Shown in pieces: positions 2,637 through 6,956 of a stretch of DNA of 26,191 bases. The stretch spans positions 1 to 26,191 of IMG/VR virus record IMGVR_UViG_3300025168_000574. One strand, 5' to 3'. The notes under the pieces were generated by a model, which saw only the letters and a list, made by a program, of their open reading frames with translations, was not told the origin of the DNA and made no database searches. The translations under genes were made by a program, and so were the position numbers. Within the stretch, counting starts at the first letter, position 1. Every line of letters starts with the position of its first letter. This DNA comes from a virus.

Positions 2637-3248
2637 TTAGTTGTATTTCCTTTCAGCAGCATCTCTGCAAGATGATTTAATAAATGATTTTTCTTCAGGA
2701 TTAAAATCCCTCCAAACATCTTTCTGCTGTGAAGCTGTTAAATCACGATATGCTTCAACAGTTGCTATGTCATCTTTGTTATCGCAAGCAACTTTAATTT
2801 GAGCAATGTAATTGCCACGCATATCAGGATTATCTGCATCCCATGTTGGTAGATCAGGTAAGTCTTCACCTTCATATAGATAAAGACCCATTCCATGCAA
2901 GCCAATAGCTTTTGTAACACATCGTTTGATTGCAGTATTAACAGCCATTGAATCAACTGTCTCAAGTTTCTGGGCTTTGTTTTGAAAGTTTAAAATTGGC
3001 AAATGCTCTACATGCTCAAGTCCATCAACTGTTACACCACATTCAACCCAAGCAGTCCTACCATCAGTATGATAGTTCCATCCTTCAACATTTTTATATA
3101 TTGTGTATGTCGCATCAGGGTGTCTTTCTTTTAACCATCTCCAAGCATGAGCCCAAGACAAATAATTAAATTTACCTTTTGCCTCAACATTCTTAGAACA
3201 ATCAATTTCATACAAACTTTGAAAATTACTTTTTTTAGATTTTGTCAT
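2637..3248 (-). CDS. DUF1071/Sak3-type single-strand annealing recombinase
   Basis: 203 residues. The sequence SLYEIDCSKNVEAKGKFNYL, then SWAHAWRWLKERHPDATY, then AVNTAIKRCVTKAIGLHGMG followed by LYLYEGEDLP, matches the conserved layout of DUF1071 proteins, grouped with phage Sak3-type annealing proteins. These anneal complementary single strands during phage recombination and recombination-dependent replication, usually with an exonuclease and an SSB. The conserved part covers about residues 10-135; the rest is a charged helical tail. The start is ATG 3248, with AAGGAG at proper spacing; the GTG at 3251 is too close to it. No partner exonuclease is visible in the window, but an SSB-like gene follows. 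Confidence 0.85.
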   Translation of the reverse strand: MTKSKKSNFQSLYEIDCSKNVEAKGKFNYLSWAHAWRWLKERHPDATYTIYKNVEGWNYHTDGRTAWVECGVTVDGLEHVEHLPILNFQNKAQKLETVDSMAVNTAIKRCVTKAIGLHGMGLYLYEGEDLPDLPTWDADNPDMRGNYIAQIKVACDNKDDIATVEAYRDLTASQQKDVWRDFNPEEKSFIKSSCRDAAERKYN

Positions 3249-3257
3249 CACGTCTCC

Positions 3258-3643: not shown

Positions 3644-3827
3644 TTTTAAATTCATCAAAATTAATGCCCTCCCATGCAGCAAGAACATTTAATTTATAAT
3701 CAAATTTTTCAGCTTCTTCGATAGCAATGAGAGGCCCATAGCCTTGAGAAACTAAATCTCTAGCAAAATGCCAAGCTGCTTTAGAAAGATGTGCTCCAGC
3801 GTCTTTAAATTCATCGTATGTATTCAT
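3621..3827 (-). CDS. Hypothetical protein, 68 residues
   Basis: Not recognised. Starts MNTYDEFKDAGAHLSKAAWH; one compact helical domain with a conserved-looking ARDLVSQGYGPLIAIEEAEK segment. An excellent Shine-Dalgarno (AAGGAGG) lies inside the end of the upstream gene, whose TAA overlaps this ATG (TAATG). Cytosolic by composition. Member of the minus-strand early operon. Confidence 0.7.
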   Translation of the reverse strand: MNTYDEFKDAGAHLSKAAWHFARDLVSQGYGPLIAIEEAEKFDYKLNVLAAWEGINFDEFKNANEKSA

Positions 3828-4147
3828 TACGCTACCTCCTTTTTAAGAAGGTTAGAAAGTGCATTTTCTTTTTCATCAAGGCTAGGTGCAAATTCAACAA
3901 CGTGAAATTTTATAAATCCTAAAATATCACTAATGACTCTTTCAGTTTTCCATTCGTCATTCATGTTGTGAATACTAATTTTATGATCAAGCTGTTCATC
4001 CATCATAAAATACATACCTTCTGGTACATCTTTGCCTTCGTCAATCCAGCTCTTAAAAAATATTTCAAAGCCAGCAATTTGTAATAAATCTTTCATTACA
4101 CAAGTATCAACCCAGCTATCTAATTGGTAAGTTACAATCTTATTCAT
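3827..4147 (-). CDS. Hypothetical protein, 106 residues, first gene of leftward operon
   Basis: Not recognised. Starts MNKIVTYQLDSWVDTCVMKD. An upstream in-frame ATG at 4186 exists, but the ATG at 4147 has AAGGA eight bases before it and is preferred. The protein is acidic, mixed helix and strand, with no signal peptide and no clear motif. As first gene of the leftward operon, about 80 bases downstream of the presumed transcription start, it should be the earliest made. Early host-takeover or regulatory roles are common for such positions, but this is inference. Confidence 0.7.
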   Translation of the reverse strand: MNKIVTYQLDSWVDTCVMKDLLQIAGFEIFFKSWIDEGKDVPEGMYFMMDEQLDHKISIHNMNDEWKTERVISDILGFIKFHVVEFAPSLDEKENALSNLLKKEVA

Positions 4148-4234
4148 CACGTTTTTCCTTAAAGTTGTGGAAATTTGCTTATCCACTTAGCACACAAACC
4201 CTTGTTTTTACGTATTTTTAGTTTGTATATGCAT

Positions 4235-4305
4235 AGTATAATCTATTTTTTTGCTAATAGGTGAAATAAACGCAAAGTTTTTTTGTGCTAATAGACGAAA
4301 AAAAC
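4235..4305 (-). promoter_or_regulatory. Leftward early promoter region with 20-bp direct repeat
   Basis: On the minus strand a -10 element TATACT lies at 4240-4235. No good -35 hexamer is seen 17 bases upstream. Instead that position is covered by one copy of an imperfect direct repeat: TGCTAATAGGTGAAATAAAC (plus strand, 4252-4271) and TGCTAATAGACGAAAAAAAC (4286-4305), 17 of 20 identical and 34 bases apart. A promoter with a poor -35 and repeated sites at about -30 and -65 suggests binding by a phage repressor or activator. The protein is unknown; the repeat does not recur near the repressor gene start. Confidence 0.55.
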
Positions 4306-4334
4306 CCAGAGGCCCTATTGCTAAAGACTCTGGG
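4298..4334 (-). terminator. Rho-independent terminator
   Basis: On the minus strand CCCAGAG (4334-4328) pairs with CTCTGGG (4311-4305) and is followed by seven T residues (4304-4298). It lies downstream of the 119-residue gene on the same strand and would isolate the lysogeny region from the leftward operon promoter. The T tract overlaps one copy of the direct repeat. Confidence 0.8.
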
Positions 4335-4379
4335 GGGTACGCTACGTGATGAGAAGCGTGTAAATATTATACCAAATAT

Positions 4380-4739
4380 CTATGAATAGTTATTTTTTAT
4401 ATTAGTTATTTGATCAGAAATATTATAAGGGTATCCAGATGCACATGCTTCAACTTGTTCAGCAATGCTTTGTATATCTTGATCTATTTCTGTAGTCATA
4501 TCTATTAGTGTTTGTTTATCAACCCATGATGGAATGTTTTGAGCTATTTCCATTATGTCACTTGCTAAATAAACAATTTTAGATATTTCGTGAGCTCTGT
4601 TTTTTATCCATTCAATTAAAACTTCTAAAGCGTCAACAACGTGATCTTTAAATTGTTCTAATTGTTTTTCTGCAAAAACAGAATAATTGCTGGCTATTGC
4701 AACATCGTAATGCAACGATGATTTTATATTATCTAACAT
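4380..4739 (-). CDS. Hypothetical protein, 119 residues, lone gene beside repressor
   Basis: Not recognised. Starts MLDNIKSSLHYDVAIASNYS; almost entirely helical and acidic with regular heptad-like spacing (LEQFKDHVVDALEVLIEWIK, then ASDIMEIAQNIPSWVDKQTL), so a coiled-coil or helical-bundle protein is likely. GGAG precedes the ATG. The gene is set apart from both neighbours: a terminator follows, and about 450 bases without a clear gene precede it on the repressor side and strand. That makes it a candidate lysogen-expressed accessory (moron) gene. A Fur-box-like site and structured leader lie upstream. Any link to iron control is inference. Confidence 0.7.
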   Translation of the reverse strand: MLDNIKSSLHYDVAIASNYSVFAEKQLEQFKDHVVDALEVLIEWIKNRAHEISKIVYLASDIMEIAQNIPSWVDKQTLIDMTTEIDQDIQSIAEQVEACASGYPYNISDQITNIKNNYS

Positions 4740-4832
4740 ATTTACTCCATTTGTCCTTTTATACTTGTACGTATGTCTTACTCATGTTGAGCATCCAGCT
4801 ATATATCGTAGCCGAAACCAAGTTGTACTTAT

Positions 4833-5116
4833 AGATGTTACAGCAAGTTAAAAAACTTCTGTAGTACCATCTTGTATAGTTATGGCCTGTGCCAAATAAG
4901 AGTTCACTTGAAGGAGCTGACTCAATTCCCTGTTAGTTTGTTGAGTATGTAGGTTTCCACTACTTGCTCATGGGTACTTCCCATGTTGTTTAAGGGCAAC
5001 ACCCTTTCAACTGCAAGTAGTGGCATAGAGCCATTCTGTATTTAATTTGTTTATCGCTGCTTTCAGTATCAGTCGATAGAGCTCGCTTGTTTTAGGTGTC
5101 TAGCTCCTCTGCACCT
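4833..5116 (-). ncRNA. Structured leader or non-coding RNA (candidate)
   Basis: The 448 bases between 4740 and 5187 hold no convincing gene but many inverted repeats. TACAG-c-AAGTT pairs with AACTTCTGTA (4839-4849 with 4854-4863), extended by AGATG/CATCT (4833-4837, 4868-4872). TGGC pairs with GCCA (4883-4894) and ACTCAA with TTGAGT (4920-4946). A three-way junction lies at 4957-5023. Further out, TATCG pairs with CGATA (5052-5078) and AGGTG with CACCT (5094-5116). Transcribed leftward from the candidate promoter at 5119-5147, it would be a 5' leader of about 370 bases for the 119-residue gene, or a free RNA. Base composition looks less AT-rich than the neighbours. No known RNA family recognised. 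Strand is inferred from the promoter; the folds work on either. Confidence 0.5.
4957..5023. repeat. Compact three-way-junction inverted repeat
   Basis: Outer arms CCACTACTTGC (4957-4967) and GCAAGTAGTGG (5013-5023) are perfectly complementary over 11 bp. They enclose two hairpins: CATGGG/CCCATG (4969-4974, 4980-4985; 5-base loop) and AAGGG/CCCTT (4992-4996, 5002-5006; 5-base loop), the latter extended by TTG/CAA (4986-4988, 5008-5010). Junction linkers are 1, 0 and 2 bases. Such density of perfect pairing in 67 bases is unlikely to be accidental. Confidence 0.7.
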
Positions 5117-5118
5117 TA

Positions 5119-5147
5119 ATCATTTTGTAAATGATAATCATTATCAA
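5119..5147 (-). promoter_or_regulatory. Fur-box-like operator inside a candidate promoter
   Basis: GTAAATGATAATCATTATC at 5127-5145 matches the classical 19-base Fur consensus GATAATGATAATCATTATC at 17 positions (my comparison by eye). On the minus strand it lies between a -35-like TTGATA (5147-5142) and a -10-like AATGAT (5124-5119) with a 17-base spacer, the normal arrangement for Fur repression. Transcription would run into the structured leader and the 119-residue gene. The -10 is weak (4 of 6). A phage-encoded regulator binding an AT-rich palindrome is the alternative. Confidence 0.5.
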
Positions 5148-5187
5148 TACTACCTTGTTTTAAGTAGCAATGTTAATTATTTTAAAA

Positions 5188-5604
5188 TTAATTACTATGT
5201 CCTGAAAAAATTTTATTAACTTTACCTATAGTCGTAGCACCTTCAGGCAAATATAAACGATCATTCTTTTTAATTTTGACTAGATAAAAATCACTTTTAA
5301 GGTCTGGAGTAACTGGTGTATCAACTGCAACTAATGAAATATGCTGCTGTATTCTTACCACATTTGGTTCTAGTTCACCATCAAGAAGATATTGAACAGA
5401 AGTGCCAAGAGCATCTGCTAATTCTTTTATGTATCTAGGAACTTTAATTCTTCCTGATTCACAAAATTGAATGTTTTGATATGTAACACCAGCTAGTCCA
5501 GCTAACTCTGATTGTGTAAGGCCCTTATCTTTTCTTAATAATTTAACTCTCTCTCCAAGAGTTTTAACATTATCTATTACTACTTTAGTCACATCACTTG
5601 ACAT
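5188..5604 (-). CDS. XRE-family repressor, short form without peptidase domain
   Basis: 138 residues. A typical XRE/Cro-CI helix-turn-helix occupies about residues 15-75 (LGERVKLLRKDKGLTQSELA, then ESGRIKVPRYIKELADALGT followed by SVQYLLDG). It would act as the lysogeny repressor. The remaining 60 residues are too short for the S24 autocleavage domain of lambda CI-type repressors, and no Ala-Gly or Cys-Gly cleavage site with Ser and Lys catalytic residues is visible. The last part (DFYLVKIKKNDRLYLPEGAT, then IGKVNKIF) looks like the final strands of such a domain, as if the middle were lost. It is divergent from the Cro-like gene. A Shine-Dalgarno GGAG supports the start. Confidence 0.85.
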   Translation of the reverse strand: MSSDVTKVVIDNVKTLGERVKLLRKDKGLTQSELAGLAGVTYQNIQFCESGRIKVPRYIKELADALGTSVQYLLDGELEPNVVRIQQHISLVAVDTPVTPDLKSDFYLVKIKKNDRLYLPEGATTIGKVNKIFSGHSN

Positions 5605-5665
5605 TATTTACTCCACTTTACCAAATTAAGACGTGTTGCACAAAAAAACATTGTATACTTACGCC
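5605..5665. promoter_or_regulatory. Divergent repressor / Cro-like promoter region
   Basis: Rightward, a -10 TATACT (5654-5659) lies only six bases before the preferred ATG of the Cro-like gene at 5666, so transcription should start at or next to that ATG; no good -35 is seen. Leftward, TTGTGC (5642-5637 on the minus strand), a 17-base spacer and TAAAGT form a plausible promoter for the repressor. I do not see clear repeated operators in these 61 bases. Confidence 0.5.
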
Positions 5666-5851
5666 ATGGATAAATTAATCGCACATTTTGGAAATCAAAA
5701 AAAATTAGCTGATTTCCTTGATGTTAAACATGGACACATCTATTACTGGTTGAAAAATGGAATTCCACCACGAGTAGCTATAAAAATTGAAGAAAAGACT
5801 GATGGTTTGTTCAATCGTAGGCTTCTTTGCCCTGAATTCTTCAATCAGTAA
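5666..5851 (+). CDS. Cro-like / YdaS-type small DNA-binding protein
   Basis: 61 residues: MDKLIAHFGNQKKLADFLDV, then KHGHIYYWLKNGIPPRVAIK. This is the helix-turn-helix of Cro and YdaS-type proteins in the standard place opposite the repressor. It should repress repressor transcription and open the lytic path. The start at 5666 is preferred to GTG 5633 because the domain begins right at this Met and because the -10 element lies inside the longer version. There is no Shine-Dalgarno before 5666, consistent with a leaderless transcript. First gene of the rightward early operon. Confidence 0.85.
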   Translation: MDKLIAHFGNQKKLADFLDVKHGHIYYWLKNGIPPRVAIKIEEKTDGLFNRRLLCPEFFNQ

Positions 5852-5907: not shown

Positions 5908-6237
5908 ATGACTGTGCAACTTCATATTCCAGCTTTAAGTATTAATGAATGCTGGCAAGGAAAGCGATTTAAGACAAAGAAATATAAAGCCTATGAAAAA
6001 CAAATTTTGCTAATGTTACCAAGGTACGAAATCCCAGAAGGCAAGCTGGCTGTCAAGATCGAGGCTGGGTTTCAATCTGCTGCAAGCGATCTGGATAACA
6101 TTGTCAAACCAATTTTGGACATTCTTCAAAAGCGATATGGCTTTAACGACAATAGAATTTACAGCTTAGAGCTTGAAAAGAAGGTAGTAGGAAAAGGTAG
6201 TGGTTATTTTAATTTTAATATTGAAGGGTATACGTGA
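5908..6237 (+). CDS. rusA: RusA-family Holliday junction resolvase
   Basis: 109 residues. It starts MTVQLHIPALSINECWQGKR. The conserved RusA core is SAASDLDNIVKPILDILQKR followed by YGFNDNRIYSLELEK: acidic DLDN, the Lys four residues on, LD, and the later Asp that bind metal and cut branched DNA. Phage RusA proteins resolve recombination and replication intermediates before packaging. A TTG at 5896 would add four residues but overlaps the -10-like element, so the ATG was chosen. The stop overlaps the start of the initiator gene (TGATG). Confidence 0.9.
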   Translation: MTVQLHIPALSINECWQGKRFKTKKYKAYEKQILLMLPRYEIPEGKLAVKIEAGFQSAASDLDNIVKPILDILQKRYGFNDNRIYSLELEKKVVGKGSGYFNFNIEGYT

Positions 6238-6956
6238 TGAATACTGAGCAAACAAATATAAAGGAACAACCAAGTTATTATGCAATACTGACAGCAGACG
6301 TAAGATACTCAAAGGTTTTAAAGCCTAATGAGAAATTATTGTTTGCTGAAATTACAGCACTTACAAACATGAACGGTCAATGCTTTGCAACCAACAAATA
6401 TTTTGCTGGCCTGTATGACGTTTCTATAGAGACTGTGAGCAGATGGGTATCGCACCTTGAGAAGTTAGGTTTTATTAAAAGAACGATCAAATACAAGCAA
6501 GGAAGCAAACAAATAGATAAGAGGTTTATAAGTTTAGCTACCCCTATTGACGAAAAGATCAATACCCCCCATGATAATAAAGTCAAGACCCCTATTGACG
6601 AAAAGGTCAAAGGTAATACTACAAGTTTTAATAGTTCTTTTATAGAAAATTTTTATCCAAATGAAACGTCTATATTAGCAGTAAGTGACAAGTATGGCTC
6701 TGTAGTAGATCGAGTATTACATATCGCAGTTCAAGAGTTTAAGGATGCAGCTACAAACAAAACAGGTGAGCCATATAATGATTTGCAATCAGCCTTTAGA
6801 AATTATGTACGTAAAGATTGGTTGGTAAGTTTTAAAGCTACACCACAAACACATGCTCAGATGAGAGGTAAGGTTATACAGGCTCAAACTAAACCTAACC
6901 TTGATAAGTTAGCTATGCAAAAGTCTATGAAAAAACTGGAGCAAGCTAATGGATAG
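6237..6956 (+). CDS. Lambda O-like replication initiator with HTH domain
   Basis: 239 residues. Residues about 25-100 form a winged helix-turn-helix (EKLLFAEITALTNMNGQCFA, then TNKYFAGLYDVSIETVSRWV, HLEKLGFI) of the type in phage replication initiators. Residues about 102-125 are three 8-residue repeats (TPIDEKIN, TPHDNKVK, TPIDEKVK) encoded by the DNA iterons. The C-terminal part (about 140-239) probably contacts the replication partner. The layout mirrors lambda O, whose gene contains the origin. The TGA of rusA overlaps this ATG (TGATG). The next gene overlaps the end by 8 bases and looks like a P-type partner. Confidence 0.8.
   Translation: MNTEQTNIKEQPSYYAILTADVRYSKVLKPNEKLLFAEITALTNMNGQCFATNKYFAGLYDVSIETVSRWVSHLEKLGFIKRTIKYKQGSKQIDKRFISLATPIDEKINTPHDNKVKTPIDEKVKGNTTSFNSSFIENFYPNETSILAVSDKYGSVVDRVLHIAVQEFKDAATNKTGEPYNDLQSAFRNYVRKDWLVSFKATPQTHAQMRGKVIQAQTKPNLDKLAMQKSMKKLEQANG
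6540..6665 (+). repeat. Three 24-bp tandem iterons plus AT-rich tract: probable replication origin
   Basis: Three in-phase 24-base units lie at 6540-6563, 6564-6587 and 6588-6611. Units 1 and 3 differ at two positions; unit 2 is more diverged but keeps ACCCC, ATGA or TTGA, and the AAAG-x-TCAA end. A strongly AT-rich stretch follows (about 6612-6665). Iterons next to AT-rich DNA inside the initiator gene are the hallmark of lambda-type origins. Function inferred from layout. Confidence 0.65.

Follow-up and report, generated by a model that had tools for sequence, protein, structure and literature searches.

A predicted small antisense RNA in the repressor operon of a temperate phage matches the start codons of three lytic genes

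The sar RNA of phage P22 and the OOP RNA of phage lambda are overlapping antisense RNAs, each directed at one gene. Both are small phage RNAs that pair with the mRNA of a lysis-lysogeny gene and block its expression (PMC12197685). The C4 RNA of phages P1 and P7 serves in phage immunity, its loops pairing at ribosome-binding sites; it comprises three stem-loops, with two pairing loops, and is processed by RNase P to about 77 nt (PMC5320573). The immunity region of phage P4 encodes the antisense CI RNA, which prevents expression of the replication genes of P4 itself during lysogeny: it is processed from a primary transcript and pairs with sites in that same transcript, causing premature transcription termination (PMC4825925). 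Finally, svsR of the lambdoid prophage NC-SV is a prophage small RNA located at the 3' end of cI, for which no pairing targets are known and which affects host functions (PMC12803456). The phage antisense RNAs in the literature that we compared act mostly on one gene, and we found no report in the open-access literature of a phage RNA that addresses the start codons of several lytic genes through a single seed. Here, by contrast, one short loop matches the starts of a replication gene, a recombination gene and an early gene, on both arms of the genome.

We analysed a virus record of 26,191 bases (hereafter, the window) that derives from a temperate phage. It encodes an integrase (398-1564), a CI-type repressor (5188-5604, minus strand; HTH_3/HTH_31) and a P22-Cro/YdaS-like gene that ends at 5851 on the plus strand, together with Sak annealase, RusA-like, replication-initiator, terminase and structural genes. 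With the repressor as query, three relatives with repressors of 55-61% identity were retrieved from IMG/VR, namely 3300021960_000414 (G001, pieces L002/L005), 3300009132_000264 (G002, an 8.2-kb fragment, pieces L003/L009) and 3300021089_000082 (L019/L028). All four phages share the order repressor, non-coding gap, homologue of a lone gene, small RNA and leftward early operon. The lone gene (4380-4739, minus strand) encodes 119 amino acids, has homologues of 30-35% identity at the same place in the three relatives and belongs to no recognisable family. Its product is predicted, with low confidence, to be all-helical, and the AlphaFold model (mean pLDDT 58) is too weak for a fold search. The position of the gene is that of rexAB in lambda; its product may be an exclusion protein, or else work with the small RNA as its partner. 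A search of the GTDB genome collection found neither the repressor nor the lone gene.

Transcription of both early operons appears to be under the control of the protein repressor. An operator-like element, CACAAAAAAACTTTG (4273-4287, minus strand), lies ahead of the leftward early operon, directly past the small-RNA terminator, and is near-identical in the relatives; another, CACAAAAAAACATTG (5639-5653, plus strand), lies ahead of the Cro-like gene. The 15-mer CACAAAAAAACWTTG has exact matches in the window at these two places only, one per early operon, which suggests repressor control of transcription on both arms, as in lambda; the pair are likely the repressor operators. TTTGTGTGCTA, or a sequence close to it, is preserved in the 5' leader of the leftward operon, followed by a small hairpin of variable sequence and then by the tagged start discussed below (window 4150-4230, minus strand; L002 4020-4080; L009 5985-6045; L019 3600-3670). 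This leader may contain an antitermination or regulatory site.

A small antisense RNA of about 60 nt is predicted 3' of the lone gene (4298-4361, minus strand, with inferred ends), about 470 bases downstream of the stretch 4833-5116, which an earlier sequence-only reading had flagged as a candidate structured RNA. The small RNA would consist of a 5' hairpin, a terminator and a run of U, and is preceded by an extended -10 promoter box, TGGTATAAT (4366-4374, minus strand), at which GTATAATAT is conserved in all four phages. In each of them, about 20-50 nt past the lone gene, GTATAATAT is followed by a hairpin, whose loop is (UC)UCAUCACGU or differs little from it, and then by a terminator hairpin and a U run. 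Among the four sequences, two-sided compensatory changes are seen in 9 of the 17 pairs and 97% of the cells are paired, a result that none of 500 shuffles equalled; sliding the partner by a single column lowers the pairing to 37-50%. The 5' hairpin itself shows a replacement of C-G by G-C in G002. The core of the loop, CAUCACGU, is predicted to be 84-93% unpaired across the four small RNAs. The loop of L019 is exactly the seed and nothing more, and that of G001, ACAUCACGU, allows pairing over 8 nt, not 9. The small RNA was not found in phage records, and a search of IMG/VR with a broader promoter-plus-loop pattern yielded, beyond the three relatives, only unrelated matches in which the RNA is absent; accordingly, four phages, the window and its three IMG/VR relatives, are the only ones found to carry it.

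The seed loop UCAUCACGU (4344-4352, minus strand) is an exact antisense match to ACGUGAUGA, a sequence lying across the start codons of three genes: those for the replication initiator and the Sak annealase, and the first leftward early gene. The tag, ACGTGATGA, is found at 4144-4152 on the minus strand, at the start of the first leftward early gene (3827-4147, ATG at 4147); at 3245-3253 on the same strand, at the start of the gene for the Sak-like single-strand annealing protein (2637-3248, ATG at 3248; Pfam SSAP_Sak, 3.2e-33); and at 6232-6240 on the plus strand, at the start of the replication initiator (6237-6956, ATG at 6237; PHROG replication initiation, 5.7e-28). Each of the three tagged starts lies 3' of a Shine-Dalgarno-like sequence. 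The window contains four occurrences of ACGTGATGA, the three gene starts and, reversed, the loop, against 0.07 expected. When pairing energies were calculated for all ATG starts of open reading frames of at least 60 codons, the best values in the window (-13.6 to -14.4 kcal/mol) belonged to exactly the three tagged genes; one further strong pairing site (24033) lies inside a 915-aa gene. In each relative, the initiator and the first leftward gene are among the top-ranked, and in two of the relatives they are joined there by the gene at the annealase position. Furthermore, the only 8-mers of the non-coding interval that are antisense to at least two gene starts are those of the loop, in all four phages. 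The tag could in part reflect a habit of start sites, such as a GTG next to the ATG or a TGATG overlap, yet only three genes of the window have ACGTGATGA.

The same 9-mer might, alternatively, be a DNA site (ACGTGATGA/TCATCACGT) recognised by the repressor, by Cro or by some other regulatory protein of the phage, and occur in a hairpin loop only incidentally; its recurrence near the immunity region and in the relatives is what such a site would produce. However, every gene-linked copy points the same way and positions the start codon identically; two of these three sites are internal to operons and distant from promoters; the arms on either side of the reversed copy in the loop covary; and a different 15-mer, present at both early promoters, fits an operator better. 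A protein-binding site thus appears to be a most improbable explanation of the tag, and we proceed from the reading that it is a target of antisense pairing.

The distribution of the tag in the relatives is informative with respect to what is being conserved. In G001, the tag is found on the same three gene positions. In G002, the initiator and the first leftward gene are tagged, and ACGTGATGG is present on the gene at the annealase position. In L019, the tag marks the initiator, the first leftward gene and two genes located past the integrase, but not on the gene at the annealase position, so that the regulon is not fixed. The genes behind the tag, meanwhile, are not the same: the first leftward proteins of the four phages are mutually unrelated, the initiators of the window and of G002 show no BLASTP similarity, and neither do Sak and the G002 protein at the annealase position (phrog_11717). 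Hence, the tag follows position, not protein, a pattern that is difficult to account for unless the tag itself is under selection. Two genes differ between relatives in whether they are tagged: the phrog_11717 gene is tagged in G002 and untagged in L019, and the MTIKEKMRELE gene is tagged in L019 and untagged in G002 (the loci of gain or loss being L019 5012-5641 and 8572-8697, L009 7090-7719 and L003 about 4600-4640).

Given these data, it seems probable that the ~60-nt RNA of the repressor operon is a trans-acting antisense repressor of lytic genes that pairs with the three start codons. The operon can be envisaged to comprise, in this order, the repressor, a structured leader, the lone gene and the ~60-nt antisense RNA with a promoter and a terminator of its own, such that the repressor, the lone gene product and the antisense RNA would all be made in the lysogen. 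The 9-nt loop UCAUCACGU would then pair with ACGUGAUGA across the start codons of the initiator, the annealase and the first leftward gene, blocking ribosome entry at three lytic genes. Production of the RNA, its action in trans by a block of translation and its service to lysogeny are all inferred here. With ribosome entry blocked by pairing, the protein repressor would be backed up, both in the lysogen and against a superinfecting relative: the repressor, bound at operators on both arms, would control transcription, and the antisense RNA would add a block of translation.

A different role can be imagined, in which the small RNA works chiefly in cis or serves as a sponge, either as the end of the repressor transcript that is titrated by lytic mRNAs or as a tuner of the adjacent leftward gene only. 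The first leftward gene lies about 200 nt downstream of it and on the same strand, which would suit such a role. Nevertheless, the RNA comes with a -10 box of its own and a terminator that covaries, and the initiator, being encoded on the other strand, would have to be reached in trans; accordingly, we regard a restriction to cis or sponge function as rather unlikely and retain the trans-acting antisense RNA as the preferred interpretation.

How, then, does this RNA compare with the described ones? It resembles C4 (RF01695) in that a loop is complementary to ribosome-binding sites of lytic genes, here to the start codon adjacent to the Shine-Dalgarno sequence in three genes. The differences are that the RNA described here has two stem-loops, a single antisense loop and a terminator, and three start-codon targets; its own -10 box would speak against a need for processing by RNase P. 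The covariance model of C4 (RF01695) finds no match at the gathering score in the window and no hit up to an E value of 5 in 4130-4450. With the P4 CI RNA it shares the nature of an antisense RNA of the immunity region directed against the phage's own replication genes, but it would be a separate short transcript, complementary to the start codons of several mRNAs from both strands; its complementary sites are the three start codons, one of them on the opposite strand, and not sites in its own transcript. Like sar and OOP, it would be a small phage RNA aimed at the mRNA of lysis-lysogeny genes; unlike them, it carries a short seed for several distant genes. A cis-encoded antisense RNA lies opposite its target and overlaps it fully, whereas this RNA overlaps none of its three targets and pairs over 9-10 nt. 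Like svsR, it would be a small RNA of a prophage with its gene at the 3' end of cI, and it differs in having three phage targets. The features expected of trans-acting seed-pairing sRNAs, namely an accessible short seed, a terminator with a U run and several targets at translation starts, are all present at the level of sequence. On the best reading, then, the small RNA would work like the C4 RNA of P1 or the CI RNA of P4, being a member of neither family.

The stretch 4833-5116 makes up most of a 448-nt gap between the repressor and the lone gene (4740-5187, minus strand) that is non-coding at the same position in the three relatives, so that its location had been read correctly. Also borne out is the view that it holds no convincing gene: according to codon scores trained on this phage, the best open frame in the gap scores -0.02 per codon, compared to +0.28 for genes (sd about 0.2) and -0.4 to -0.5 for open stretches in the wrong frame. 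It is, as had been stated, less AT-rich than its surroundings (GC 0.39 versus about 0.30 on either side). Searches for tRNA and tmRNA found none; the peptides of the region have nothing credible in Pfam, PHROGs or phage genomes; and the leader yields only chance matches of 22-30 nt against phage records and none against plasmid records. No family of Rfam 15 matches the window at the gathering score, with chance-level matches only below the threshold in the window region and in the L009 leader, and none in L019. The claim of structure survives in part. Folding is real, with z scores against shuffled sequence of -3.46 (minus) and -4.28 (plus) for the 284-nt region and -4.38 for the whole gap; in a tiling of the window into 186 stretches, the plus strand of the region ranks first and the minus strand fourth. 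The density of repeats, put at no fewer than seven, is ordinary: three perfect inverted repeats of at least 6 bp are observed, and 3.1 are expected from shuffles. The sole repeat that exceeds chance is one of 11 bp (4957-4967/5013-5023; 0/500 shuffles). Because both strands fold well, folding alone leaves the strand undecided, and it is the neighbouring genes and a conserved hairpin with a single-stranded tail that point to an RNA of the minus strand.

The 11-bp repeat, CCACTACTTGC/GCAAGTAGTGG, forms the stem of a predicted three-way junction (4957-5023, minus strand) around hairpins at 4992-5006 and 4969-4985. If the whole of 4833-5116 were one new large structured RNA, leader or free, this junction would be the part through which it acts, and both the rank of the stretch as the best-folding one of the window and the 11-bp stem would fit. 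The large branched fold, though, has no homologue in the three relatives by nucleotide comparison, the arm pattern has no match in IMG/VR, the junction none in phage or plasmid records and Rfam none either; the junction is specific to the window, its covariation is not measurable, and the two strands fold about equally well. Such an RNA seems unlikely. We also tend to doubt, though less strongly, that 4833-5080 is a decayed insertion or gene remnant that folds incidentally. The variation in gap length, about 125, 300 and 382 nt in the relatives against 448 nt in the window, would be compatible with a remnant, and stretches such as ELSQLLQVNSYLAQAITIQDGTTEVF look protein-like; the codon scores are not gene-like, however, and the peptides lack credible matches, as noted above.

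On comparison with the relatives, the sole conserved part of the stretch is a hairpin followed by an A-rich GCG tail, AGGTG-CAGAGGAGCTAGA-CACCT-AAAACAAGCG (5084-5116, minus strand), the 5' end of which coincides with the right border of the flagged stretch. It was first noticed in a nucleotide alignment of the relatives and then searched for by a script (stem of at least 5 bp followed by A[ACT]AAGCG). Six copies were found in the four phages, all in the gap between the repressor and the lone gene and all on the transcribed strand, and none elsewhere in about 57 kb searched (four sequences, both strands). The stems are AGGTG/CACCT in the window, ACTGG/CCAGT in G001 and in the first copy of G002 (G002a), AGTGG/CCACT in the second copies of G002 and L019 (G002b, L019b) and GGTGG/CCACT in L019a. 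Every pair is maintained, with two-sided changes at three of five positions, as counted from the script output; a MAFFT alignment of the six hairpins puts the arms out of register. In G001, the Shine-Dalgarno sequence of the lone gene follows immediately upon the hairpin, an arrangement suggestive of a leader element that acts in cis; with low confidence, we propose that 5084-5116 is a cis-acting control element for the lone gene. Thus, of the two options offered by the sequence-only reading, a regulatory leader or a free RNA, the leader retains a conserved, covarying hairpin within the flagged stretch, and the strongly supported separate regulator lies outside it. An H-type pseudoknot between the hairpin loop and the GCG tail (preQ1-like), judged by eye, was rejected, the pairing positions differing between copies; so was a pairing of the small RNA with the AAGCG tail, which fails in G002. 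Just upstream of the conserved hairpin, the window has a second small hairpin, ATCATTT-ACA-AAATGAT (5119-5135, minus strand), where G002 has GGTTC-ATTTT-GGACC, a putative homologue.

Taken together, these observations lead us to favour, with some reserve, the view that this lineage of temperate phages has a second, RNA-level immunity, in which one small RNA would silence a lytic regulon marked by a shared 9-nt start-codon tag, and in which incoming recombined genes would carry or acquire the tag, so that the regulon survives module exchange. A match that is kept while the genes are swapped would offer a testable model of an RNA-based repressor regulon surviving mosaic evolution, and suggests a simple way to search for others, by looking for immunity-region loops with antisense matches at the starts of several genes in the phage concerned.
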